Positions 1 to 63,264 of a stretch of 64,000 nucleotides of DNA are shown piece by piece. Numbering within the stretch: position 1 is the stretch's first letter; each line of letters opens with the position of its first letter. The stretch is from Nesterenkonia alba DSM 19423 (lineage in GTDB: Bacteria; Actinomycetota; Actinomycetes; Actinomycetales; Micrococcaceae). The notes beneath the pieces were generated by a model, which saw nothing but the letters and a program-made list of their open reading frames with translations, was not told the origin of the DNA and searched no databases. The stretch is taken from contig NZ_ATXP01000002.1 in the NCBI RefSeq assembly GCF_000421745.1, positions 62,001-126,000 on the forward strand, written 5' to 3'. A program made the translations under genes and the position numbers.

Positions 1-537
1 TTTGCTCGGTTCCCCAGTGCCGGGGGTCTTCTTCTCCCGCTTGGCCTGCTCGGCGGCTTTGCGCTTGGCTTCTTCCTTGGCGCGGCGGCGCTGTTCATCT
101 GCCCGGTCCAAGGAGCGTGGATCAAAGCTGGTGCCCTCCCGGGCCACGCCGAGGTCCAGCCGGAACCCACGGATGGCATCCTCAGGTACCAGCGGCATGG
201 CACGTTTGAGTTTGACGTAACCGATCAGCGCGAAGATCAACGCAATCAGGAGGAAGACCGCCGCCACAATGAGCGCGGCCAGCCACAGTTCAACGACCAG
301 TGCCAGTGCGGCAATCGCCGCGACAATCAGTGCCACCACTAAAAAGGTGACGAAGACCAGCCCCACCACCATCAGCGCGGCAGCGATCCCGGCAGCCAGC
401 CCTTTGGCTTTCATCTGGGCGGTGGCCAGAGCGATCTCATCGCCGATCTGCTTGGGACCCAGCCGGATGAGGACCTTGAGGACATCGAGAATCGAAGTCT
501 TGGGTGCCTTTTTGGTCTCAGCGGCATGCTGGGCCAC
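1..537 (-). CDS. Phage holin family protein (Holin-X/DUF1469-like), 3' end cut by window
   Basis: Small membrane protein truncated at the window edge, so its C-terminus is not seen. The visible 179 residues start with a short polar segment, then two adjacent hydrophobic helices (about residues 50-100, rich in Ala/Val/Leu/Ile), then a charged Lys/Arg/Glu-rich tail typical of a cytoplasmic helix. This two-helix plus charged tail layout matches the actinobacterial Holin-X (PF07332) family, whose members are chromosomal proteins of unclear role despite the name. The GTG start at 537 is chosen because GGAGG lies 7 nt upstream; an in-frame TTG at 582 is possible. It is transcribed away from the TM2 gene. 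No phage genes are nearby, so a lytic role is not supported. Confidence 0.75.
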   Translation of the reverse strand, partial: MAQHAAETKKAPKTSILDVLKVLIRLGPKQIGDEIALATAQMKAKGLAAGIAAALMVVGLVFVTFLVVALIVAAIAALALVVELWLAALIVAAVFLLIALIFALIGYVKLKRAMPLVPEDAIRGFRLDLGVAREGTSFDPRSLDRADEQRRRAKEEAKRKAAEQAKREKKTPGTGEPSK

Positions 538-7234: not shown

Positions 7235-9464
7235 CAGCTGCGGAGCGCTCCTCATCACCGGGCTGAGCGACCTCGCTGCTGTCAGAAGAGCCGGTGTTTT
7301 CAGCCCCTGGGCCGGAGCGTCCACGGCCGATGACTTGGAGCACCACGGCTACAGCCATAGCCACCATGCCTGCCACCGAGATCGTCATATCCGGGTAGAT
7401 GAGCATCAGCCCACCGAGGATGAGCAGCGTCCGCTCCCAGCCGTTAGCACGGCGTACGAGGTACCCCGCCAGTCCGGAAGCTAGGGCAACCATCCCCACG
7501 ATCGTCATCGCCAAATATCGCACGGTCTCGAACCATTCCCCTTGCAGCAAGAGTGCCGGCTGCAGGATGAATACATAGGGGATGAGGAATCCGGCGAAGG
7601 CGATCTTCAGTGCCGTCACCCCCGCCGAGAGCGGATTCGCGTGGGCGATACCCGCCCCGGCGTAGGCAGCCAGACAGACGGGTGGCGTGATATCGGCGAG
7701 AATGCCGAAGAAGAACACGAACATGTGAGCTGCGATGAGCGGCACGTCGAAGTTGTTGTAGAGGATCGGTGCAGCGATCGTCGCGGTGACCACATAATTC
7801 GCCGTGGTGGGAAGTCCCATGCCCAACACGATGCAGGCGATCATCACGAAGAACAGCACCAGCATGAACTCCAGCTGGTTACGGTCGATGAGCACTTCAA
7901 GGAACCCCGGGAAAAAGGCGATCAGCGAGCTAGAGATATCCATCAGCCCGGCACCCAGTTGCCCGCCCAGTCCGGTGGAGGTCACAGTACCTGCCACGAT
8001 TCCCGCAGTGGCACAGGCGGCGATCACCGGCAGCGCTGTCCGGGCTCCGGCGATAAACATCTCGGTGACCACCTGAGCCAGCGCGAGAGCGGACTTGCCC
8101 ACGGCTTGGGGGATCTCGCCGCGTTCGGCCGCTTCGGAGAGCAGTGGACCAAAGTGCTGGATGAGCGCCCTGATGAAACTGATCCCCAAGGCGGTGCCGA
8201 TGCCGAACAGTGCCGCACGCATCGGGCTCATCCCCGACAGCAGTGTGGAGATGATGACCACCAGGGGCAGGAGCATATCGATCCGGGTCAGGATGGACAT
8301 CCATGTCGGCAAATCAGCCGAAGCCATTCCTTGAAGCCCGTTGCGCTTGGCTTCAAAGTGCACCGAGAGCATCGCCCCGAGGAAATACAGCAGTGAGGGG
8401 ATCACTGCGATGACGATGAGCTCGTTGTACTCCAAGTCCGGCACATTCTGGGCCATGATGAAGGCTGCAGCCCCCATGATCGGGGGCATGAGTTGCCCGC
8501 CGGTGGAGGCGGTGGCCTCGGTGGCCGCCGCCACGTGCGGTTTGAAACCGGCCCGTTTCATGATGGGGATGGTGAAGGAGCCTGAGGCCACCGTGTTGGC
8601 CACCGACGACCCGGAGATCATTCCCTGCAGACCGGAGGCACCAACCGCGGCTTTAGCGGGTCCCCCGGAGAACCGACCAGCCGCCCGGAAGGCGAGGTCG
8701 TTGAAAAACTGCCCAATATTGGTGCGCAGCAGCACCACGGCGAAGAACAAGAACAAGAAGATGAAGTTCGCCGAGACTTGGATCGGGGTCCCGAAAACTC
8801 CCTGCCCCGAGGAGAGAAACAGGTTAGTGGCCACCTCCGACCACTCCTGGCCGCGGTGGGCAAAAGCAGGCAGGTGATTGCCGAAGATGGCGTAGAGGAT
8901 AGCCAGCGAGGCAATAATGACAATGGGCAAGCCCACACAGCGGCGTGTGGCTTCCAGCACCAGCAGCACCCCGACGGCGGCGACAGCAATGTCGAGGTCG
9001 GTATACCCCAGGATCTGGGTCCGGTTGGAGACCAGATGCGGGTACCGGAAAAAGATGTACAGACTGCACGCGATCCCCGCAGCAGCGAGGACGACGTCGT
9101 ACCAGGCCACTCCACGGTGACGCCCGGTGAGGATGTTCTTCCACTTCTGATCCGGGTCCCCGGGCTGCAACAGCTTCCGGGAAATCGGGTACAGCAGGAA
9201 GATCAGTCCCACGGCCCCAGCGACGTGCAACGAGCCGTGCATCCACTGATTGAACGGCCTGTTAAAGGCCGCATAGAGGTGGTAGGCGGTGAAGGCCACC
9301 GAGATGGCCCCCACGAGCCAACCCCACCAGCCAAGATCGGTGCGATACCGGCTGGAGACGTCGTGCTCGCGGAGGACCTCCTCGGCCTTCTCCTCAGAGG
9401 CGGCGCCCGGCTTCATCCCAGCTGGGGATTCGGCCGGGCGCCGACTCGGAGCAGCGGTGTTCAC
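7224..9464 (-). CDS. TRAP transporter fused permease subunit (DctQ-DctM fusion, TAXI type)
   Basis: Integral membrane protein of 746 aa that combines the small (4-TM) and large (about 12-TM) TRAP permease subunits, as usual for TAXI systems. A charged N-terminus of about 45 residues is followed by many hydrophobic helices. Gly/Ser-rich stretches such as Gly-Met-Ile-Ser-Gly-Ser-Ser-Val-Ala-Asn and Gly-Met-Gly-Leu-Pro-Thr-Thr-Ala-Asn match DctM-type substrate and Na+ sites. The C-terminus is a Ser/Glu-rich cytoplasmic tail. GTG 9464 overlaps the stop of the binding-protein gene by 4 nt, so the two are co-translated. The substrate is unknown; some TAXI systems take up dicarboxylates or glutamate. 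Confidence 0.92.
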   Translation of the reverse strand: MNTAAPSRRPAESPAGMKPGAASEEKAEEVLREHDVSSRYRTDLGWWGWLVGAISVAFTAYHLYAAFNRPFNQWMHGSLHVAGAVGLIFLLYPISRKLLQPGDPDQKWKNILTGRHRGVAWYDVVLAAAGIACSLYIFFRYPHLVSNRTQILGYTDLDIAVAAVGVLLVLEATRRCVGLPIVIIASLAILYAIFGNHLPAFAHRGQEWSEVATNLFLSSGQGVFGTPIQVSANFIFLFLFFAVVLLRTNIGQFFNDLAFRAAGRFSGGPAKAAVGASGLQGMISGSSVANTVASGSFTIPIMKRAGFKPHVAAATEATASTGGQLMPPIMGAAAFIMAQNVPDLEYNELIVIAVIPSLLYFLGAMLSVHFEAKRNGLQGMASADLPTWMSILTRIDMLLPLVVIISTLLSGMSPMRAALFGIGTALGISFIRALIQHFGPLLSEAAERGEIPQAVGKSALALAQVVTEMFIAGARTALPVIAACATAGIVAGTVTSTGLGGQLGAGLMDISSSLIAFFPGFLEVLIDRNQLEFMLVLFFVMIACIVLGMGLPTTANYVVTATIAAPILYNNFDVPLIAAHMFVFFFGILADITPPVCLAAYAGAGIAHANPLSAGVTALKIAFAGFLIPYVFILQPALLLQGEWFETVRYLAMTIVGMVALASGLAGYLVRRANGWERTLLILGGLMLIYPDMTISVAGMVAMAVAVVLQVIGRGRSGPGAENTGSSDSSEVAQPGDEERSAAATA

Positions 9465-10468
9465 GGCAGGTCGATGCCCTGCTCGTCGTAGTACCGCTCA
9501 GCACCGGGGTGCAGCGGCAGGTCGCCGATGCCCAGCAGTGCCTCGTCGATGTCGATGCTCTCACCCTGGTCCACGGTGATCTGGTCGGCGTTGTCGAAGA
9601 TCGCCGCGGTGATCTCGTAGGCCAAGTCCTCAGAAACCTGAGTGGAGGAGGCCACCAGGGCGGCGAAAACCGAGAGGGTGGTGACATCCTCGTCGAGGAA
9701 TTCGTAGGCGTCGGCCTCGATCGTGTAAGCCTCGTAGTCGCCAGTGTCGGCGATGTCCTCGGCGTCGGACTCATCGAGGGAAACCAACCGGACATCGGTG
9801 GACTGAGCCAGCTCGGTCAGTGAGGCCACGGGCACACCAACGACGAACATCGTCGCGTCGATCTGACCGTCGGCGAGCATCTCCGTGGAGTCACCGAATT
9901 CGGTCTCCTCAGCCTCGTAGTCGCCTTCTTCGATACCGAAGTGCTCGAGGATCGCATCGGAGATGATGCGGGTACCGGAGCCGACGTCGCCCACAGCGAT
10001 GGTCTGGCCCTCGAGGTCCTCAATGGTTTCAATATCCGAATCGGCACGCACCACAATGTGCATGGCCTCCGGGTAAAGGTTCGCGATCCAGCCGAAGTTG
10101 TCGATGACCTCACCTTCAAGGTCCGGCAGCTCTCCGTTCATCGCGTCGATGGCGGTGTCATTCTGGGTCAGGGCCAGCTGGGACTGTTCCTGGTAGATCC
10201 GGCCGAGGTTGTCGGCGGAACCACCGGACTCCACATAGTTCACCGTGGCTTCAGTCTCTTCTTCGAAGATGCTGGCCAGCTCACCACCCAGCGGGTAGTA
10301 GGCCCCACCTGTACCACCGGTGGTGAACTCCAGGTCCGTGATGAAGTCGTCCTCGTCACCGACCTCAAGGTCACCGTCACCGTTGCCGTTGTCGTCGTCG
10401 CCGCACGCGGCCAGCGCGGTCAGTGCGCCAATGGCCAAGGTTGCAGCGGCAGTGCGTCGAATATTCAT
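9461..10468 (-). CDS. TAXI family TRAP transporter solute-binding lipoprotein
   Basis: Protein of 335 aa with a lipoprotein signal peptide (Leu-Ala-Ala-Cys, Cys22) followed by an Asp/Asn/Gly-rich linker. The mature domain begins with Phe-Thr-Thr-Gly-Gly-Thr-Gly-Gly-Ala-Tyr-Tyr-Pro, the N-terminal signature of TAXI binding proteins. Gly-Asp-Val-Gly-Ser-Gly-Thr-Arg appears later at the ligand cleft. It is very acidic, as expected for an extracytoplasmic protein in a salt-tolerant organism. AGGAGG upstream supports the start. It heads a two-gene operon with the fused permease. Confidence 0.93.
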   Translation of the reverse strand: MNIRRTAAATLAIGALTALAACGDDDNGNGDGDLEVGDEDDFITDLEFTTGGTGGAYYPLGGELASIFEEETEATVNYVESGGSADNLGRIYQEQSQLALTQNDTAIDAMNGELPDLEGEVIDNFGWIANLYPEAMHIVVRADSDIETIEDLEGQTIAVGDVGSGTRIISDAILEHFGIEEGDYEAEETEFGDSTEMLADGQIDATMFVVGVPVASLTELAQSTDVRLVSLDESDAEDIADTGDYEAYTIEADAYEFLDEDVTTLSVFAALVASSTQVSEDLAYEITAAIFDNADQITVDQGESIDIDEALLGIGDLPLHPGAERYYDEQGIDLP

Positions 10469-11618: not shown

Positions 11619-12731
11619 ATGAGTCCTCGATCCCAGCCCCGCCCTGTGGTGGCCACCCGGCCCATGGCTCGGCGCACTCGCCGCCGTCGGACCGTGGCCG
11701 CCCTGGGGCTCACGGCCGCATTGATCGCCGGGACCACCTACGGAGCCTGGCGGTATATCGATGAGAACGAATACCTCCTCGATGCCCGCTGTGAAGTCCA
11801 GGTCGGAGAACACCAACAACGCCTCTCCCCCGAGCAAGCCGACAGTGCTGCCCTGTTAGCGGCCACCGCTGTGGAACGTCAGCTGCCCCCTGCAGCGGCG
11901 GTCCACGCCGTGGCGATGTCCCTGCAAGAGACCGAACTTCAGCTGCGCGCCGATGACCCGGATCCAGGCGAACGCGAGCTCTTCGCCCGGGGTCGTCCCG
12001 CCTGGAGTGACCAGGCCGGGGCGGAGCAGGTTCCAGTGACGGTCAACGGCTTTTTCGACCTGCTGGAAGAACGCTACGAGGCTGCTCTTGCCGCGGAAGA
12101 GGAATCCGAGGACGAAGACGACGACGCCGAGGACACCGAGGACGAAGACTCCGCCGGTGAGTACTGGCAGCCTGAGATGGAGCTCGACGTCGCTTCAGAG
12201 GCTCTCGACCGTCCGCATAACGCGCAGTTCTACCCCGAACATTATGACCGTAGCCGGGCGTTTGCCGCCCCGTTGGCCGGTCAGTCCCAAGTGGACTTCA
12301 GCTGCACGCTCAGCCAGCTCGAGGTACCCGGTCCGGACCCCGAGGGTACAGCGGAGGAACTCATCGCCGTGGTCCCCACCGCTTTGGAGATCCCCTTCAC
12401 AGAACCGGAAGACGACGATGAAGACGAGGGTGACGAGGATGGGGAGACCGAAGACGACGACGTCGCACCGGAGCCGCTCCCCGAGGGGATCGTGGAGGTC
12501 ACCGGCAGCGGAGAAGAGGCCGTGGTGACCGTCACCGCCCCGCCTGCTGATGAGTTTTACGATTACCAGTGGATGGTGGCCCATTGGGCGGTGGCCAGTG
12601 CTGAGCGCTTCGGTATCCAGAGCGTCACCGCCGGCTCCCAGCAGTGGACCCGGGATAACAGCCACTGGGAAAGCACCGATGAGCCCACCGAGGCGGACAC
12701 GGTGGTCATCGGCTTCACCCGCGACATCTAA
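11619..12731 (+). CDS. Membrane-anchored acidic protein, divergent lysozyme-like actinobacterial family
   Basis: Protein of 370 aa with an Arg-rich N-terminus (about residues 16-27), one TM helix (about 28-46), and a large extracytoplasmic region. Two acidic low-complexity runs lie near residues 160-180 and 265-290. The segment after the TM (Leu-Ser-Pro-Glu-Gln-Ala-Asp-Ser-Ala-Ala-Leu, then Leu-Pro-Pro-Ala-Ala-Ala-Val-His-Ala-Val) resembles a common actinobacterial family that carries a conserved Asp-Arg-Asp-Ser ... Leu-Phe-Gln-Gln-Arg-Pro-Ser-Gln-Gly-Trp motif. Here that motif is reduced to Glu-Leu-Phe-Ala-Arg-Gly-Arg-Pro-Ala-Trp. Function is unknown. It lies 23 nt after dapD and is probably co-transcribed. 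Confidence 0.7.
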   Translation: MSPRSQPRPVVATRPMARRTRRRRTVAALGLTAALIAGTTYGAWRYIDENEYLLDARCEVQVGEHQQRLSPEQADSAALLAATAVERQLPPAAAVHAVAMSLQETELQLRADDPDPGERELFARGRPAWSDQAGAEQVPVTVNGFFDLLEERYEAALAAEEESEDEDDDAEDTEDEDSAGEYWQPEMELDVASEALDRPHNAQFYPEHYDRSRAFAAPLAGQSQVDFSCTLSQLEVPGPDPEGTAEELIAVVPTALEIPFTEPEDDDEDEGDEDGETEDDDVAPEPLPEGIVEVTGSGEEAVVTVTAPPADEFYDYQWMVAHWAVASAERFGIQSVTAGSQQWTRDNSHWESTDEPTEADTVVIGFTRDI

Positions 12732-51942: not shown

Positions 51943-53028
51943 GTGCGTATCTGTCTCATCGCCTCGAGCCAGTTCCCCATCGCCGAGCCCTTCGCCGGCG
52001 GACTGGAGGCGCACACCCATGCCCTGGCCCGCACCCTGAAGTCCCGTGGGCATGAGGTCACCTTGTTCGCCGCGGCCGGTAGTGATCCGGCGTTGGAAGC
52101 AGAGGCGATCCACCCGCAGTCGCTGCAGCTGACCGACCAGGCGCGCCGGGATATCAGTGCGGCTCCGGAGTCCTGGATGCAACAGCACCACGCGTACCTG
52201 GGGCTGATGCTGCAGCTGGCAGGGGCCTGTCAGTTCGATGTGGTGCATAACAACTCCTTGCACCATCTACCGGTGGCGATGTCTCAGCTGCTCGATGCCC
52301 CGCTGGTGACCACACTGCACACTCCCCCGACCCCGTGGCTGGAGTCAGCCATGCACTACGCGGGCCATGCCGCCCGGTTTGTAGCGGTCAGTCGCGCCAC
52401 GGCCGGCGCCTGGTCATACACCGCAGAGTTCAGTGCTCCGGTTCAGGTCATCACCAACGGGGTGGATACCTGCCGGTGGCGACCCGGTCCTGGTGGCAAC
52501 GACGCGGTGTGGATCGGCCGGATCGCCCCGGAAAAGGCCCCACACCTGGCTATTGAGGCTGCCCGTGCGGCAGGGATACGGCTGCAGCTGGCCGGTCCGG
52601 TGATGGATGCGGCATATTTCGCCGAGCGGGTCCAACCACTGCTCGGCCCCGCTGCGGTCTACCGGGGTCACTTATGTCACCAGCAGCTGGTCGAGGTGGT
52701 GGGCGCCTCGGCGGTGGCAGTGGTCAGTCCGATCTGGGACGAACCCTACGGGCTGGTGGCCGCTGAGGCGATGTCCTGCGGAACTCCCGTGGCAGCAACC
52801 CCGCGCGGTGGTCTGATCGAACTCATCGGGCCGGCCTCCGGAGCCCTGGCCGCCGATGATTCCCCCGCCGCTCTGGCTGAAGCGATCCGCACTGCTCTGC
52901 GCTGTGACCGGATGCGGGTGCGCCAGTGGGCCCAACGGCACCTCTCATTGACGCGCATGGTCGATGAGTATGAAGAACTCTATGCCCGCTTAGCCCGCAA
53001 CCCGAAGCAGCGGAGTCCCACGGCATGA
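51943..53028 (+). CDS. Glycosyltransferase family 4 (GT-B), first gene of triad
   Basis: Retaining GT-B enzyme of 361 aa. The N-terminal domain has the acceptor loop Glu-Pro-Phe-Ala-Gly-Gly-Leu-Glu-Ala-His. Val-Ile-Thr-Asn-Gly-Val-Asp joins the domains. The nucleotide-sugar motif is Glu-Pro-Tyr-Gly-Leu-Val-Ala-Ala-Glu-Ala-Met-Ser-Cys-Gly-Thr-Pro-Val (about residues 267-283), the EX7E motif of GT4. No membrane segment is present. It overlaps the next gene by 4 nt. Donor and acceptor are unknown; three overlapping glycosyltransferases suggest sequential building of one oligosaccharide or glycoconjugate. Confidence 0.88.
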   Translation: MRICLIASSQFPIAEPFAGGLEAHTHALARTLKSRGHEVTLFAAAGSDPALEAEAIHPQSLQLTDQARRDISAAPESWMQQHHAYLGLMLQLAGACQFDVVHNNSLHHLPVAMSQLLDAPLVTTLHTPPTPWLESAMHYAGHAARFVAVSRATAGAWSYTAEFSAPVQVITNGVDTCRWRPGPGGNDAVWIGRIAPEKAPHLAIEAARAAGIRLQLAGPVMDAAYFAERVQPLLGPAAVYRGHLCHQQLVEVVGASAVAVVSPIWDEPYGLVAAEAMSCGTPVAATPRGGLIELIGPASGALAADDSPAALAEAIRTALRCDRMRVRQWAQRHLSLTRMVDEYEELYARLARNPKQRSPTA

Positions 53029-54053
53029 TCGGCTGCTACATCCACCACCAGGGGTCAGGGCACCTCCACCGTGCGCTGAGCTGGGCTGGACTGTGGGCCC
53101 GGCGGAGAGACGAACCGGTGACCGGACTCTCCAGCGCTCCGGCCCCACCGAAGTGGCCTGGGCCGTGGATCCACCTGCCCTCCGATGCCCCCAGCCAGGC
53201 TCCCAGGGAACCGGCCACCGGGGGCCTGGGCGATCCGACCGCTGGCGGGGCATTGCACTGGGTACCCACCCGTCATGCGGGGCTGCGGCGGCGTATGGCG
53301 ATGATCTCCGCGTGGATCGATCAGACCGCGCCGGCACTGCTGGTGGTTGATATCTCCGTGGAGGTAACTCTCATCGCACGGCTCCACGGAGTTCCCGTCG
53401 TGGTCGTCGCCCTGCCAGGAGACCGTCGGGACCCGGCCCACCAGCTGGGGTATCAGCTATCTGAAGCGGTGGTGGGGTTCTGGCCTCGAGAGGCCGAAGG
53501 GCTGCTCCAGCGCGACGACGCCGGCCCCGCCACACAGCCGCTGGGTGGGCTCTGCCGCTTCTCACCTGCAGTGCAGACCGCCACACCCCGCACTCCCGTC
53601 CCGGGGCTGCGTATCGCGGTGCTCAGTGGTCGCGGCGGCGGGGGGATCCCCGCACCTGCTGTGGCCGCTCTGCGCCGGGGCTGTCCCGAGGCACAGGTCA
53701 CTGTGCTCGGCGGAACCGCTGCGTGGCGTGAGGACCCCTGGCCGGTCCTCCACGCTGCCGACTTCGTGGTCACCGCAGCGGGCCAGAACGCTGTGGCCGA
53801 AGTCGCCGCCTCCCGGACCCCGGCGGTGGTGATGCCTCAGCAACGTCCCCATGGCGAGCAACATCACCTCGCCGAGGTGCTGTTGCGTGGGTCCTGGCCG
53901 GCTGTCCCGGCCCCACGGACTGACACCCCGGCAGCCTGGCGGGAGAGTGTCCACCAGGCCGCCGGGCTCGATGCCTCCTGCTGGCAGCACTGGACCGACG
54001 GACAGGCTGCAGTACGTTTCATCGAGCTCTTAGACAGGGAGATCCGCCCATGA
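53025..54053 (+). CDS. Glycosyltransferase (GT28/MurG-like GT-B), second gene of triad
   Basis: Protein of 342 aa beginning Ile-Gly-Cys-Tyr-Ile-His-His-Gln-Gly-Ser-Gly-His, the Gly-x-Gly-His loop of MurG/GT28-like enzymes. The C-terminal half carries Ala-Asp-Phe-Val-Val-Thr-Ala-Ala-Gly-Gln-Asn-Ala-Val-Ala-Glu, which matches the donor-binding Gly-x-x-Ser/Gln-x-x-Glu region, and then Pro-Gln-Gln-Arg-Pro-His-Gly-Glu-Gln. It starts inside the previous gene's stop (ATGA) and overlaps the next by 4 nt. Substrates are not predictable. Confidence 0.8.
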   Translation: MIGCYIHHQGSGHLHRALSWAGLWARRRDEPVTGLSSAPAPPKWPGPWIHLPSDAPSQAPREPATGGLGDPTAGGALHWVPTRHAGLRRRMAMISAWIDQTAPALLVVDISVEVTLIARLHGVPVVVVALPGDRRDPAHQLGYQLSEAVVGFWPREAEGLLQRDDAGPATQPLGGLCRFSPAVQTATPRTPVPGLRIAVLSGRGGGGIPAPAVAALRRGCPEAQVTVLGGTAAWREDPWPVLHAADFVVTAAGQNAVAEVAASRTPAVVMPQQRPHGEQHHLAEVLLRGSWPAVPAPRTDTPAAWRESVHQAAGLDASCWQHWTDGQAAVRFIELLDREIRP

Positions 54054-56005
54054 GAACTGTGGTCATTACCTCTGTGGCCGGACGGCACGAGCACTTACGC
54101 CGGATGCGCCGGGCACTGATGACAGCCGACACCCCACCGGAGGTACACGTGGTGGTCACCATGGGGGATGCCACCGCCGGCACTATCGCCGCCCAGATCC
54201 CGGGACCGTTGTGCATCTGCCACTTGCCGGTGGAGACCGCAGGCTTGCCTCTGGCCGCTGCGCGGAACACCGGAGCCCGACTCAGCGGCGAGGACCCTGA
54301 GGACCTGCTCATCTTCCTGGACGTGGACTGCATTCCCAGCCGGGAGCTGGTGGCCGGGTACCGGCAGGCCGCGGAAGAGTTCCCCGGTGAGATTCTCTGC
54401 GGTCCGGTGGCCTATCTGCCGGAGACCGACCTTGAAGGGAGCACTGACGCCGAACTGGCCACCCTGGCGGATCCTCATCCCGCCCGGCCGACTCCAGCAC
54501 CGGGATTCACTGAACCCGGGCAGAACTATGATCTGTTCTGGTCGTTGTCCTTCGCGGTGTCTCGCCGGGTCTTCGACTCTCTCGGGGGCTTCGACGAGCA
54601 GTACACCGGCTACGGAGCCGAGGACACTGACCTGGCCCGGCGGGTGGAGCAGTCTGGGATACCACTGCGCTGGGTGGGGTCGGCACGAGCCTTCCATCAG
54701 CACCACCCGGTCTCGGATCCCCCGGTGGAACATCTCGATGACATCCTCACCAACGGACGACGCTACGCAGCGAGATGGGGCCACTGGCCGATGCGTGGCT
54801 GGCTGGAGGCTTTCGCTGCCCGAGGGCTGGTCACTCGACGGCTGATGACCCAGGACACTCCCAGCCCCGGACTCGCTGACACCGGTGCTGGAGACACCGC
54901 GGAGGACTGGGTGCGTACGGTCCGGGTCGCCTCCGTGCCGAGTTCGCATGTCTATATTCGGCATCTGGCGCCTCCAGAGGATGAGGACGACGGCGTCGTC
55001 GTCCGCTTACCCGATCCTCCCCCGGCGCGAGAGGATCCACCCACCGGAGCGCCCTGGTGGCCACCCCGACTCCTTGACCCTGAGGCGGTCGAGGAGCTGG
55101 CCGCCGATGTGTTCCACGTGCACTTCGGGTTCGACGCCGAAGACCCGGCGCGTCTGGGGCAGTTCACCACCGCTCTGCGCACCCGAGGCATTCCGCTGGT
55201 CTACACCGTCCACGATCTGCAGAATCCGCACCACAGCGACACCGCCCTCCACCAGGCACAGATGACCGTACTGCTGGAGGCCGCCTCAGCGGTCATCACG
55301 CTCAGTGACCGTGCCGCGGAGATCCTGCACGCTCGCTGGGGTGTCACCGCGGAGGTCATCGCCCATCCCCATGTGGTGGACTTGCCGCTCATCAGTGACT
55401 ACGGCAGCCGTCAACTGCGGCGAGCCGATGAGTTCCGACTCGGCCTGCACCTGAAATCCCTGCGGCAGAATATGGCGGCGGTACCGGTGCTGGTTGCGGC
55501 CGCGCATGCGGTCGCGGAGATCCCCGGTGGGGTGTTGCAGGTCAACGTGCACACCGATGTCTACCAACCCGACGGCGCCCGGTACGACCCCGAGCTGGTC
55601 GCCGCGCTCGACGAGCTGGCCTCAGACGGGCTGGCGGTTGATCTGCGGGTCCATGATTACTTCAGCGACGCTGAGCTCTTCGATTATCTGGCCAGTCTGC
55701 ACGCCTCCCTGCTGCCATACCGCTTCGGGACGCATTCGGGGTGGCTGGAGGCCTGCCATGACCTGGGCACCACGGTCATCGCCCCGAATGTGGGCTGTTA
55801 CGCCAGCCAGGGTGCCGAGTTCATCTACCGGTGGAACTCCGGTGTGCTCGATACCGCGTCTCTGCGTTCGGCCGTGCGCAGCGCCGCTGAGGCCGCCGGA
55901 GTGGACACCCCACAGCAGGCGGTGGCGCGGCAACAGGCCCGGTGGCAGCAGCGGCGGGACATCGCCCGCCGGCATGAGGAGATCTACCGCGAGGTCTTGG
56001 GCTGA
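54050..56005 (+). CDS. Bifunctional glycosyltransferase: GT2 (GT-A) fused to GT4-like (GT-B) domain
   Basis: Protein of 651 aa with two catalytic-type domains. Residues about 1-225 are a GT-A fold: Phe-Leu-Asp-Val-Asp-Cys is the DxD motif (near 87), and Gly-Tyr-Gly-Ala-Glu-Asp-Thr-Asp-Leu-Ala-Arg-Arg (near 188) is the GT2 acceptor/catalytic segment. A Pro/Asp-rich linker spans about 285-345. Residues about 350-651 are GT-B-like, with Tyr-Thr-Val-His-Asp-Leu, Pro-His-Pro-His-type loops and Pro-Tyr-Arg-Phe-Gly-Thr-His-Ser-Gly-Trp-Leu-Glu-Ala in place of the usual donor motif. No TM helix is present. It ends the triad operon and overlaps the convergent esterase by 22 bp. Confidence 0.85.
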   Translation: MRTVVITSVAGRHEHLRRMRRALMTADTPPEVHVVVTMGDATAGTIAAQIPGPLCICHLPVETAGLPLAAARNTGARLSGEDPEDLLIFLDVDCIPSRELVAGYRQAAEEFPGEILCGPVAYLPETDLEGSTDAELATLADPHPARPTPAPGFTEPGQNYDLFWSLSFAVSRRVFDSLGGFDEQYTGYGAEDTDLARRVEQSGIPLRWVGSARAFHQHHPVSDPPVEHLDDILTNGRRYAARWGHWPMRGWLEAFAARGLVTRRLMTQDTPSPGLADTGAGDTAEDWVRTVRVASVPSSHVYIRHLAPPEDEDDGVVVRLPDPPPAREDPPTGAPWWPPRLLDPEAVEELAADVFHVHFGFDAEDPARLGQFTTALRTRGIPLVYTVHDLQNPHHSDTALHQAQMTVLLEAASAVITLSDRAAEILHARWGVTAEVIAHPHVVDLPLISDYGSRQLRRADEFRLGLHLKSLRQNMAAVPVLVAAAHAVAEIPGGVLQVNVHTDVYQPDGARYDPELVAALDELASDGLAVDLRVHDYFSDAELFDYLASLHASLLPYRFGTHSGWLEACHDLGTTVIAPNVGCYASQGAEFIYRWNSGVLDTASLRSAVRSAAEAAGVDTPQQAVARQQARWQQRRDIARRHEEIYREVLG

Positions 56006-60801: not shown

Positions 60802-61965
60802 TCACAACCGAAGTGTGCTCTTCAGCTCCGCACCAAGCTGATCCGGCGAGGTGAGGAACCCGTCGTGGCCGATGGGTGAACGGATCACATGCGTCGTGTG
60901 CTCACCGGGAAGCAGTCCGGCCAGCTGATCGGATTCATGGGGGTAGAACAACCGGTCACTTTCTACCGCGGCGATAAACGGAGTAGCCGTGACGCGCTGC
61001 AGAGCAGCGGCCACTCCTCCACGGTCGCGGCCCACGTCGTGGCTGAGATGTGCCTCAGTGATGGTGACATAGGCATTGGCGTCAAACCGGCGAACCAACT
61101 TGGCAGCCTGGTGATCCAGATAAGACTCCACCTGGTACCGACCGCCCGGACGCCCCGAAGCCACCGGGTGCCGTACGGTGAAAGGATCCTCACTGCCCTG
61201 AGGCTTCCGTCCGAAACGGGCCTCGAACTCTCCGGGACTGCGGTAGGTGATATGCGCAATCCGGCGGGCCAGGCCCAGCCCGACCTCCGGCGGCTGGCCA
61301 CCGTAGTAGTCTCCACCGTTGAAATGCGGATCGTTGCGAATCGCCTGCAACTGCGCCTGACCGAAAGCGATCTGCTCGGCAGTGGTGGCCGCACCACAGG
61401 CAAAGACCCCCACGCCCTCGACCATGTCCGGATAGGTCACCGCCCATTCCAGGGCCCGAGCACCGCCGACCGAGCCTCCCAGTACCGCACGGAAGCGGGT
61501 AATGCCCAGCTGAGCCGCCAGGCGATACTCCAAGTGGACTGAGTCACGAATCGTGGTGAACGGGAACCGCGAGCCCCACGGCTTCCCCTCAGGGTCCGGT
61601 GACGCCGGGCCGGTGCTGCCGTAGCATCCGCCGACAATCGCTGGGGCGATGACAAACCACTCACGCGGATCAACCGGCCGATCCGGTCCCACCAGGTTCT
61701 CCCACCAGCCCGGGGCAGGATCAGCCTGCGTGGCGGCGACATGGGAATCCCCGGTCAACGCATGGGCGATGAGCACCGCGTTGTCTCCGGCAGCGTTCAG
61801 CCGCCCCCAGGTCTCATAAGCAATAGTCACCTGGGGCAGTTCCCCACCGGTTTCGAACTGGTACGCCCCGACGTCGAGCGTTTTCAGGGCACCTGCGGGG
61901 CGGTCGCCGAAATCATTGGGCAGCCGGACCGGTGGTGTGGTGGTGGCGGGGATGTCGGTGAGCAC
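60802..61965 (-). CDS. metX: Homoserine O-acetyltransferase
   Basis: Alpha/beta-hydrolase-fold acyltransferase of 387 aa that activates homoserine with acetyl-CoA for methionine synthesis. The nucleophile is in Gly-Gly-Ser-Val-Gly-Gly (about residue 164), the Asp in Glu-Ser-Asp-Arg-Leu-Phe-Tyr-Pro, and the His in Ile-Gly-His-Asp-Gly-Phe-Leu. The N-terminal Ala-Tyr-Glu-Thr-Trp-Gly and Leu-Thr-Gly-Asp-Ser-His are typical. It lies 20 bp after the MetY-like gene, in the SAM-IV-controlled transcript. Strictly, acetyl versus succinyl specificity is inferred from family and lineage. Confidence 0.94.
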   Translation of the reverse strand: MLTDIPATTTPPVRLPNDFGDRPAGALKTLDVGAYQFETGGELPQVTIAYETWGRLNAAGDNAVLIAHALTGDSHVAATQADPAPGWWENLVGPDRPVDPREWFVIAPAIVGGCYGSTGPASPDPEGKPWGSRFPFTTIRDSVHLEYRLAAQLGITRFRAVLGGSVGGARALEWAVTYPDMVEGVGVFACGAATTAEQIAFGQAQLQAIRNDPHFNGGDYYGGQPPEVGLGLARRIAHITYRSPGEFEARFGRKPQGSEDPFTVRHPVASGRPGGRYQVESYLDHQAAKLVRRFDANAYVTITEAHLSHDVGRDRGGVAAALQRVTATPFIAAVESDRLFYPHESDQLAGLLPGEHTTHVIRSPIGHDGFLTSPDQLGAELKSTLRL

Positions 61966-61985: not shown

Positions 61986-63095
61986 TCAGGCCAGTGCAGC
62001 CGCGGGCGTCTCAGCAGAGTGTGCGGCCCGTTGCAGCGCAGTGTCGAGGTCGGCGATGAGGTCAGCCGGATGTTCCAATCCGATCCACAGCCGCACCAGG
62101 GCCGGGCGGACCCCGGCAGCGCGGCGCTGTTCCTCACTGAGGTCCCTATGGGTGGTGGCCAGGGGGCTGATCGCCAGTGCCTGGGGCCCACCCACACCGG
62201 AAGACCTGCGGAACAGCCGGAGTGCGGCTACTGTCTCCCGGGCCGCAACAGCCTGGTTGACCGGGTCCCGTCCGGCAGAGACCTCGAAGGAGACCACCGC
62301 ACCGGCCCCGGCTGGCAGGTAGGAGTCAGCCCGTTCTGCGCAGGGGCTGGTCACCAGCCCGGAGTAGTAGGCGTGGTGCACCCCCGGGTGGGCGTGGAGG
62401 AACTCGGCGACCTGCTGAGCGGCGGCAGTCTGGCGGGTCATCCGGGCAGCCAGAGTGTGCAGCCCAGCGGAAATCTCCTCCGCAATGACCCCCGGCAGGG
62501 CCGGTCCCAGCTGCCGGGGCAGCGGTTCCCGCAGAGCCGGTTCCACAGTGCCGGCGTCGATGATGATCCCCGCCGCGGTCCGGGCACGCCCGGACAACAG
62601 GTCCGCGCTGGTGTGGACCACCAGGTCAGCACCCCGCTCGATGGGTCGGACCAGGTACGGCGTGGCCAAGGTGTTGTCCACAATGAACGCGGCGTCGTGC
62701 TGGCGGGCCAGTTCGGCGACCTCATCGAAGGCCAGCACGTCTCCGCGGGGGTCGGCAATCGACTCACTGAGCAGGGCAGCCGTGGTGGGTTTCAGCTCGG
62801 CACGCCAGGATTCGGCGTCGTCGGGATCCGCCACAGTGTCCGCCTCCACGCCGAAGCGCGGCAGCAGCTCGGTGAACACCTCACGGTGCCCCGCGAACAA
62901 CGAAGGCGCCACCACAATGTGGCTACCGGGTTCGGCCACATGCAACACCGCCAACGCCAGGGCTTCTCGCCCGTCGGTGACAGCCCGTGCCTGTGCTCCG
63001 CCTTCCAGGGAGGCCAGCGTCTGCTCGAGAGTCTCCGTGGGGTTGTCGCTGCGGGAGGATGCGGCGTGAATCAGCCGGGTTTCAAATTCGCTCAT
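61986..63095 (-). CDS. MetY-like (Cys/Met metabolism PLP family) protein lacking the PLP lysine
   Basis: Protein of 369 aa aligning end to end with O-acetylhomoserine sulfhydrylase / cystathionine gamma-synthase: Asp-Asn-Pro-Thr-Glu-Thr-Leu-Glu, Leu-Glu-Gly-Gly, Ile-Val-Asp-Asn-Thr-Leu-Ala-Thr-Pro-Tyr-Leu, and Pro-Leu-Ala-Thr-Thr-His near the end. The catalytic block, normally His-Ser-x-Thr-Lys, is His161-Thr-Ser-Ala-Asp165. The only Lys in the protein is Lys102, in a different segment. The phosphate-binding Tyr of Tyr-Ser/Thr-Arg is Ser, and the Ser-Gly-Met turn is Asp-Gly-Arg. It follows a SAM-IV riboswitch and precedes metX. ATG 63095 uses GGAG at 63102-63105; ATG 63107 is also in frame. 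Confidence 0.88.
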   Translation of the reverse strand: MSEFETRLIHAASSRSDNPTETLEQTLASLEGGAQARAVTDGREALALAVLHVAEPGSHIVVAPSLFAGHREVFTELLPRFGVEADTVADPDDAESWRAELKPTTAALLSESIADPRGDVLAFDEVAELARQHDAAFIVDNTLATPYLVRPIERGADLVVHTSADLLSGRARTAAGIIIDAGTVEPALREPLPRQLGPALPGVIAEEISAGLHTLAARMTRQTAAAQQVAEFLHAHPGVHHAYYSGLVTSPCAERADSYLPAGAGAVVSFEVSAGRDPVNQAVAARETVAALRLFRRSSGVGGPQALAISPLATTHRDLSEEQRRAAGVRPALVRLWIGLEHPADLIADLDTALQRAAHSAETPAAALA

Positions 63096-63098
63096 GAT

Positions 63099-63128
63099 GG
63101 TCTCCATCCGTGCTCATCAGGTGAGACC
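63099..63128 (-). promoter_or_regulatory. Shine-Dalgarno-sequestering hairpin (SAM-IV expression platform)
   Basis: On the minus strand GGTCTC (63128-63123) pairs perfectly with GAGACC (63104-63099), which contains most of the GGAG used for ATG 63095. This is the arrangement expected for translational control downstream of the aptamer. Confidence 0.5.
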
Positions 63129-63184
63129 CGCACTGTGGAGTGAAGGTCCGCGCTTGCCGTGACGGGTGCTTATCCGTCCGGCCA

Positions 63185-63264
63185 GGTCGTCACCCGGGGC
63201 ACCCCACCGCGAACTGGAGGGTTGCCGGCCAGCAAACCGGGGTTTTGCGCTGGCACTCTTGACC
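63185..63264 (-). ncRNA. SAM-IV riboswitch
   Basis: Minus-strand sequence runs GGTCAAGAGTGCCAGCG, then CCCCGG, TGCTGGCCGGCAACCCTCC, GGTGGGGTGCCCCGGGTGA and CGACC. These blocks and their order match the SAM-IV aptamer described in actinobacteria: P1 GGTC/GACC, the GAGUGCCAGCG and GCUGGCCGGCAACCCUCC core, and the GGUGCCCCGGGUGA pseudoknot segment. It lies about 90 nt upstream of the metY-like/metX unit. SAM binding would be expected to lower expression. Confidence 0.92.

Follow-up and report, generated by a model that had tools for sequence, protein, structure and literature searches.

The SAM-IV-controlled locus and its metY homolog

The window analysed here, a 64,000-nucleotide stretch of the genome of Nesterenkonia alba DSM 19423, carries near its end and on the minus strand a homolog of metY, the gene encoding O-acetylhomoserine sulfhydrylase, in which the lysine forming the Schiff base with pyridoxal phosphate (PLP) is replaced by aspartate. 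This gene, designated hereafter as pseudo-metY, lies between a SAM-IV riboswitch (SAM, S-adenosylmethionine) and metX, and its product is very probably a conserved pseudoenzyme devoid of the PLP lysine. The window's genome (G000) was compared with its congeners, which bear the other G numbers, making 30 genomes of the genus in all.

The open reading frame (ORF) of pseudo-metY is intact and spans positions 61986–63107 (minus strand), encoding 373 amino acids. It was assigned to PF01053, the Cys/Met metabolism PLP-dependent enzyme superfamily, with 261.3 bits against a cut-off of 27, and fell short of the MetY model TIGR01326 (275 bits versus 495.1). The ATG at 63095, giving a polypeptide of 369 amino acids, is a likelier start than that at 63107, being preceded by GGAG and agreeing with the start of the ortholog in G012. 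Counted from 63095, the residue in place of the PLP lysine is Asp165 (Asp169 from 63107), encoded by GAC at 62601–62603 (minus strand) in the codon context CAC ACC AGC GCG GAC, and the sole lysine codon of the ORF, AAA at 62790–62792 (minus strand), specifies residue 102 (106 from the upstream start). A covariance-model search located the SAM-IV riboswitch (RF00634) at 63145–63264 (minus strand) with 105.4 bits, the gathering score being 38, and the match covered the full length of the model (positions 1–116 of 116). It was the only one found in the genome. There was likewise one match each in G012 and G016, also ahead of pseudo-metY, and two, four and one in G004, G013 and G023; for these genome-wide counts 150 of 723 first-look candidates were scored. 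The gene for homoserine O-acetyltransferase, metX, begins 20 bases past the pseudo-metY stop and occupies 60802–61965 (minus strand; 421.8 bits, PRK00175 cut-off 331). It is seemingly intact, since G000 and G012 both retain 161 of the 172 columns that do not vary across 27 congeners. A preliminary description of this DNA, made from the letters alone, had claimed the intact MetY-homologous frame, Asp165, the single Lys102 and the position under a SAM-IV riboswitch and before metX, all of which held.

Active-site losses in pseudo-MetY

Thirteen positions, which we take to make up the cofactor and substrate site, were placed by methionine gamma-lyase numbering; the functional roles ascribed below to the Tyr-x-Arg arm and the phosphate-binding Ser/Thr of MetY are likewise presumed. 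All 13 are invariant in the 27 canonical MetY of the genus, and 10 are altered in one or both of the intact pseudo copies, those of G000 and G012; only Gly89, Asp186 and Arg375 match the canonical enzymes in both. The PLP-lysine column holds Asp in both copies, and all 27 canonical congeners have Lys there. The Tyr of Tyr-x-Arg is lost from both and the Arg from G012 only, while at the phosphate-binding positions Ser88 is replaced by Asp, Ser208 by Thr and Thr210 by Ala or Leu. Further new residues are common to G000 and G012.

Two in-frame deletions of about 40 amino acids each also lie around the active site. The first, at approximately 63056–63062 (minus strand) in a pairwise alignment to the canonical G004 protein, removes most of the arm through the Tyr of Tyr-x-Arg; the second, at approximately 62520–62546 (minus strand), where the alignment is uncertain, removes the MetY-type insert. 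The preliminary description had noted differences at two other cofactor-site residues; such differences are real, but it understated their extent and did not mention the deletions.

Of 232 columns invariant in the 27 canonical MetY, 48 fall opposite a gap in one or both pseudo copies, and both copies keep 88 of the remaining 184. The underlying alignment leaves an N-terminal FETR stretch gapped that the pairwise alignment to G004 aligns, so that the count of 48 and the earliest few of the listed new residues are affected. Site columns were kept in 3 of 12 cases and other invariant columns in 85 of 172 (Fisher p 0.14), a difference that is not significant and thus indicates that the whole protein has been altered rather than the site alone. 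A confident model of the predicted structure retains the MetY fold.

The number of lysines is one in the G000 protein and zero in the G012 ortholog. A special avoidance of lysine is weakly supported, as several of the mechanically picked open frames of the window are equally poor: ORFs of 335, 370, 342 and 651 amino acids carry 0, 0, 1 and 1 lysine (window positions 9461–10468, minus strand; 11619–12731, plus strand; 53025–56005, plus strand). Because lysine-poor proteins are not rare here, our conclusion is limited to the statement that a lysine internal aldimine is impossible in G012.

Occurrence within and beyond the genus

The pseudo form was found in three of the 30 genomes, G000, G012 and G016, in each case with the Asp, the SAM-IV riboswitch and metX. 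The remaining 27 congeners have a canonical metY followed by metX at the same locus, and a SAM-IV riboswitch precedes the gene at all 27 canonical and all three pseudo loci. The Asp common to three genomes rules out a sequencing error at the lysine codon. The G012 ortholog is intact, equal in length to the G000 copy and 67% identical to it, the same identity as that of metX in this pair. G016 is a single-contig genome rated 62% complete, in which pseudo-metY is frameshifted; its rpoB, metX and MetY2 genes (the last encoding a second MetY, described below) are also fragmented, and the frameshift was therefore read as sequence error. The pieces of the G016 copy retain HTSLDLLAGRGG with the Asp and differ at other new pocket residues, having His rather than Asp at the Ser88 site and Asn rather than His at the Thr117 site (G004 numbering).

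Outside the genus, no genome exceeded 283 bits with profile A1 among 395 genomes of the family, 396 of the order and 394 of the class, sets that overlap and were drawn from larger groups, with four candidates scored per genome. All 52 loci examined from these scans carry Lys. Counted by alignment row, with redundancy, there were 161 Lys and seven Asp, the latter being the G000 and G012 genes repeated. A wider family of MetY homologs lacking the lysine was thus not found in these samples, although a low-scoring, unrelated homolog of this kind would escape a profile search. One MetY homolog from another family of the order (L010; G049:C169, 1393–2658, minus strand) has the lysine, a replaced Tyr-x-Arg arm and no MetY insert; a SAM-IV riboswitch lies about 1.1 kb upstream of it, with an ORF of about 190 amino acids in between.

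Selection on pseudo-metY and its origin

Between the G000 and G012 copies, differences at the three codon positions number 90, 78 and 177 across 365 codons. The maximum-likelihood ratio of nonsynonymous to synonymous substitution (omega) was 0.059, with 2dlnL of 194 against omega of 1, although synonymous divergence (dS) is saturated at 4.3 and omega is therefore rough. In the same analysis the MetY2 pair was represented by a start-trimmed G000 row of 344 amino acids, MetY2 of G017 was absent and several of the dS estimates failed to converge. An excess of third-position differences was seen in every 45-codon block, most weakly in 271–315. Judged from these comparisons, neutral drift is a poor fit for this pair. 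An antisense frame of 374 amino acids lies opposite pseudo-metY (window 62019–63143, plus strand) and was taken as a by-product of high G+C content, because the G000/G012 differences track the sense codon positions.

These results bear on whether pseudo-metY could be a decaying passenger, or no more than a translated leader coupling translation of metX to the riboswitch. Roughly one in two of the ungapped invariant MetY columns has changed, metX starts close behind the pseudo-metY stop and the G016 copy is frameshifted, as such an idea would predict. It is nevertheless highly improbable, given two stop-free 373-codon orthologs at saturated synonymous divergence, their low omega, the third-position excess throughout and the broken rpoB, metX and MetY2 of G016. 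The preliminary description had named stop codons and frameshifts in homologs as the mark of plain decay; with the gene conserved between G000 and G012, plain decay is disfavoured. Its view of a riboswitch-controlled, non-decayed MetY homolog without the lysine stands, while the regulatory or scaffolding role, or other chemistry, that it suggested goes beyond these data.

Conservation is uneven along the protein. Windows 174–223 and 296–319 have identities of 0.91–0.94 in six canonical relatives and of 0.50–0.62 in the pseudo pair, whereas windows 126–149 and 248–271 hold the canonical level (0.79 and 0.83 versus 0.78 and 0.81). Such a pattern would be expected if the protein were retained for its surface and not for its pocket. 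Alternatively, a reshaped pocket containing the retained Arg along with the new Asp might bind an amino acid or other metabolite, or support PLP-independent catalysis. The fixation of the Asp in three genomes, the 0.79 identity of its window and the additional new residues common to G000 and G012 fit such a role, but the other new pocket residues are not common to G016 (His at Ser88, Asn at Thr117) and the active-site loops are the most relaxed parts of the protein, so we consider it unlikely.

A tree of rpoB from 28 genomes (G005 and G016 excluded) groups G000 with G012 with support of 89/89. This grouping is missing from the metX tree, where it occurred in 0% of bootstraps (approximately unbiased test, p 0.07), and likewise from the MetY2 tree (p 0.11). 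The tree of MetY1, the product of the SAM-IV-controlled locus, unites the pseudo copies with support of 100/100; the branch they sit on is very long, and G012 has an odd composition. A single origin of the pseudo form is favoured by the Asp and the deletions that the copies have in common. As to vertical descent or transfer the trees disagree, rpoB supporting the clade and metX and MetY2 leaning against it.

A second MetY and the possible role of pseudo-MetY

Four PF01053 members above the cut-off were identified in G000, namely pseudo-MetY, L001, L002 and L003. By our own reading, L001 is cystathionine-lyase-like and adjoins a cystathionine beta-synthase-like ORF, and L003 belongs to the same superfamily. 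L002 (G000:C22) is a canonical MetY with the sequence SVTKFLGGHGT, referred to as MetY2; it is the second canonical metY product whose existence the preliminary description had raised. MetY2 is present in 29 of the 30 genomes, being 82–91% identical in 27 other congeners and fragmented in G016, and was not found in G001 in the genus-genome comparison.

Pseudo-MetY might serve as a pseudo-subunit of this true sulfhydrylase, forming hetero-oligomers with MetY2 and tuning or stabilising it at low SAM in the manner of LCB1/LCB2. The arm bearing Tyr59 in canonical enzymes completes the cofactor site of the neighbouring subunit; it is deleted in pseudo-MetY, which should therefore be unable to complete the site of MetY2. 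Nor does MetY2 evolve faster in the pseudo genomes, where the MetY2/RpoB ratios are 1.73 and 1.66 compared with 1.62–1.79 elsewhere. Despite the predicted fold shared with the MetY family, the canonical MetY2 encoded in the genome and the homologous subunit without lysine described for another PLP family (PMC3794620), this arrangement seems improbable.

The most likely job of pseudo-MetY, proposed tentatively, is to bind MetX and tune or stabilise it. Pseudo-metY would have derived from the SAM-IV-controlled metY of the genus. As MetY2 can presumably cover homocysteine synthesis, metY1 would have been free to lose the PLP lysine, other site residues and two active-site elements, the folded protein being retained while catalysis lapsed. 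The riboswitch would then lead to production of pseudo-MetY together with MetX at low SAM, and the PLP-free protein may bind MetX and stabilise or tune the step that feeds MetY2. Beneath this lie the loss of site residues, the confident fold model, the conservation of the protein, the riboswitch, the linkage to metX and the presence of MetY2. Taken whole, a lineage-specific pseudoenzyme that partners MetX, is made at low SAM and whose catalysis was permitted to lapse by MetY2 is a plausible account that could well prove wrong. A more specific version, rather unlikely on present evidence, is that a protein with the MetY fold but no PLP, produced at low SAM, acts as an allosteric subunit of MetX, an unrelated acetyltransferase, or as a sensor reporting to it, in the latter case by binding a pathway amino acid through the new Asp and the carboxylate Arg that has been kept.

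Several observations weigh against partnership with MetX by a catalytically lapsed protein. Just two intact sequences are known, and their dS is saturated. Window 150–173, which contains the Asp, stays at 0.79 identity and could mean that the pocket is in use; the equivalents of Asp186 and Arg375 are retained, though not beyond chance (p 0.14). The neighbouring position of metX goes back to the canonical operon and does not have to imply contact. MetY2 occurs in nearly all congeners, so that redundancy permits the loss but alone does not explain it.

Other sulfur and methionine genes were surveyed in several of these genomes. Strong two-domain sulfite/nitrite reductase matches were found at G000:C4:211085–212269 (minus strand) and G012:C1:1548698–1549852 (plus strand), with one weaker match each in G004 and G013 and none in G023. 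The MetH activation domain PF02965 was matched in none of the six genomes G000, G012, G016, G004, G013 and G023; the MetE C-terminal domain gave a good match only in G013 and weak ones in G000 and G012.

Relation to known systems and significance

Pseudo-MetY is homologous to MetY (TIGR01326; PDB 4kam, 8sf5/8sf6, 7kb0) over nearly its full length, with the same fold, and shares its SAM-IV–metY–metX locus with the MetY of 27 congeners; unlike MetY it has no PLP lysine, is changed at most site positions, carries the two deletions and lies far under the family cut-off. Among the matches listed in a search of the open-access literature there was no pseudoenzyme of the MetY/cystathionine gamma-synthase family and no MetX–MetY complex. 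GcvPA may be a further precedent; a literature search for it found nothing. Pseudo-subunits without the lysine are already known in other PLP-enzyme families, and pseudo-MetY resembles them in keeping the PLP fold, lacking the lysine and being conserved. LCB1 (SPTLC1) of serine palmitoyltransferase is likewise a kept PLP-enzyme homolog without the PLP-binding lysine (PMC3794620), but it belongs to another family and is an established subunit that accompanies an active homolog, whereas such a role for pseudo-MetY is a proposal. The prozyme of trypanosome S-adenosylmethionine decarboxylase is described as a catalytically dead paralog that activates its enzyme (PMC5201418); there, in a different organism and with a different enzyme, both the partner and the activation have been demonstrated, and for pseudo-MetY the partner is inferred.

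It would be a mistake to annotate genes of this kind as O-acetylhomoserine sulfhydrylase. If pseudo-MetY does act on MetX as allosteric subunit or sensor, protein-level control would be layered over the riboswitch. A dead copy here occupies the riboswitch-controlled locus that holds a live metY in 27 congeners, and since the same locus is dead in one case and live in the other, the question of why pseudoenzymes persist would be testable in a small operon whose genes can be exchanged.
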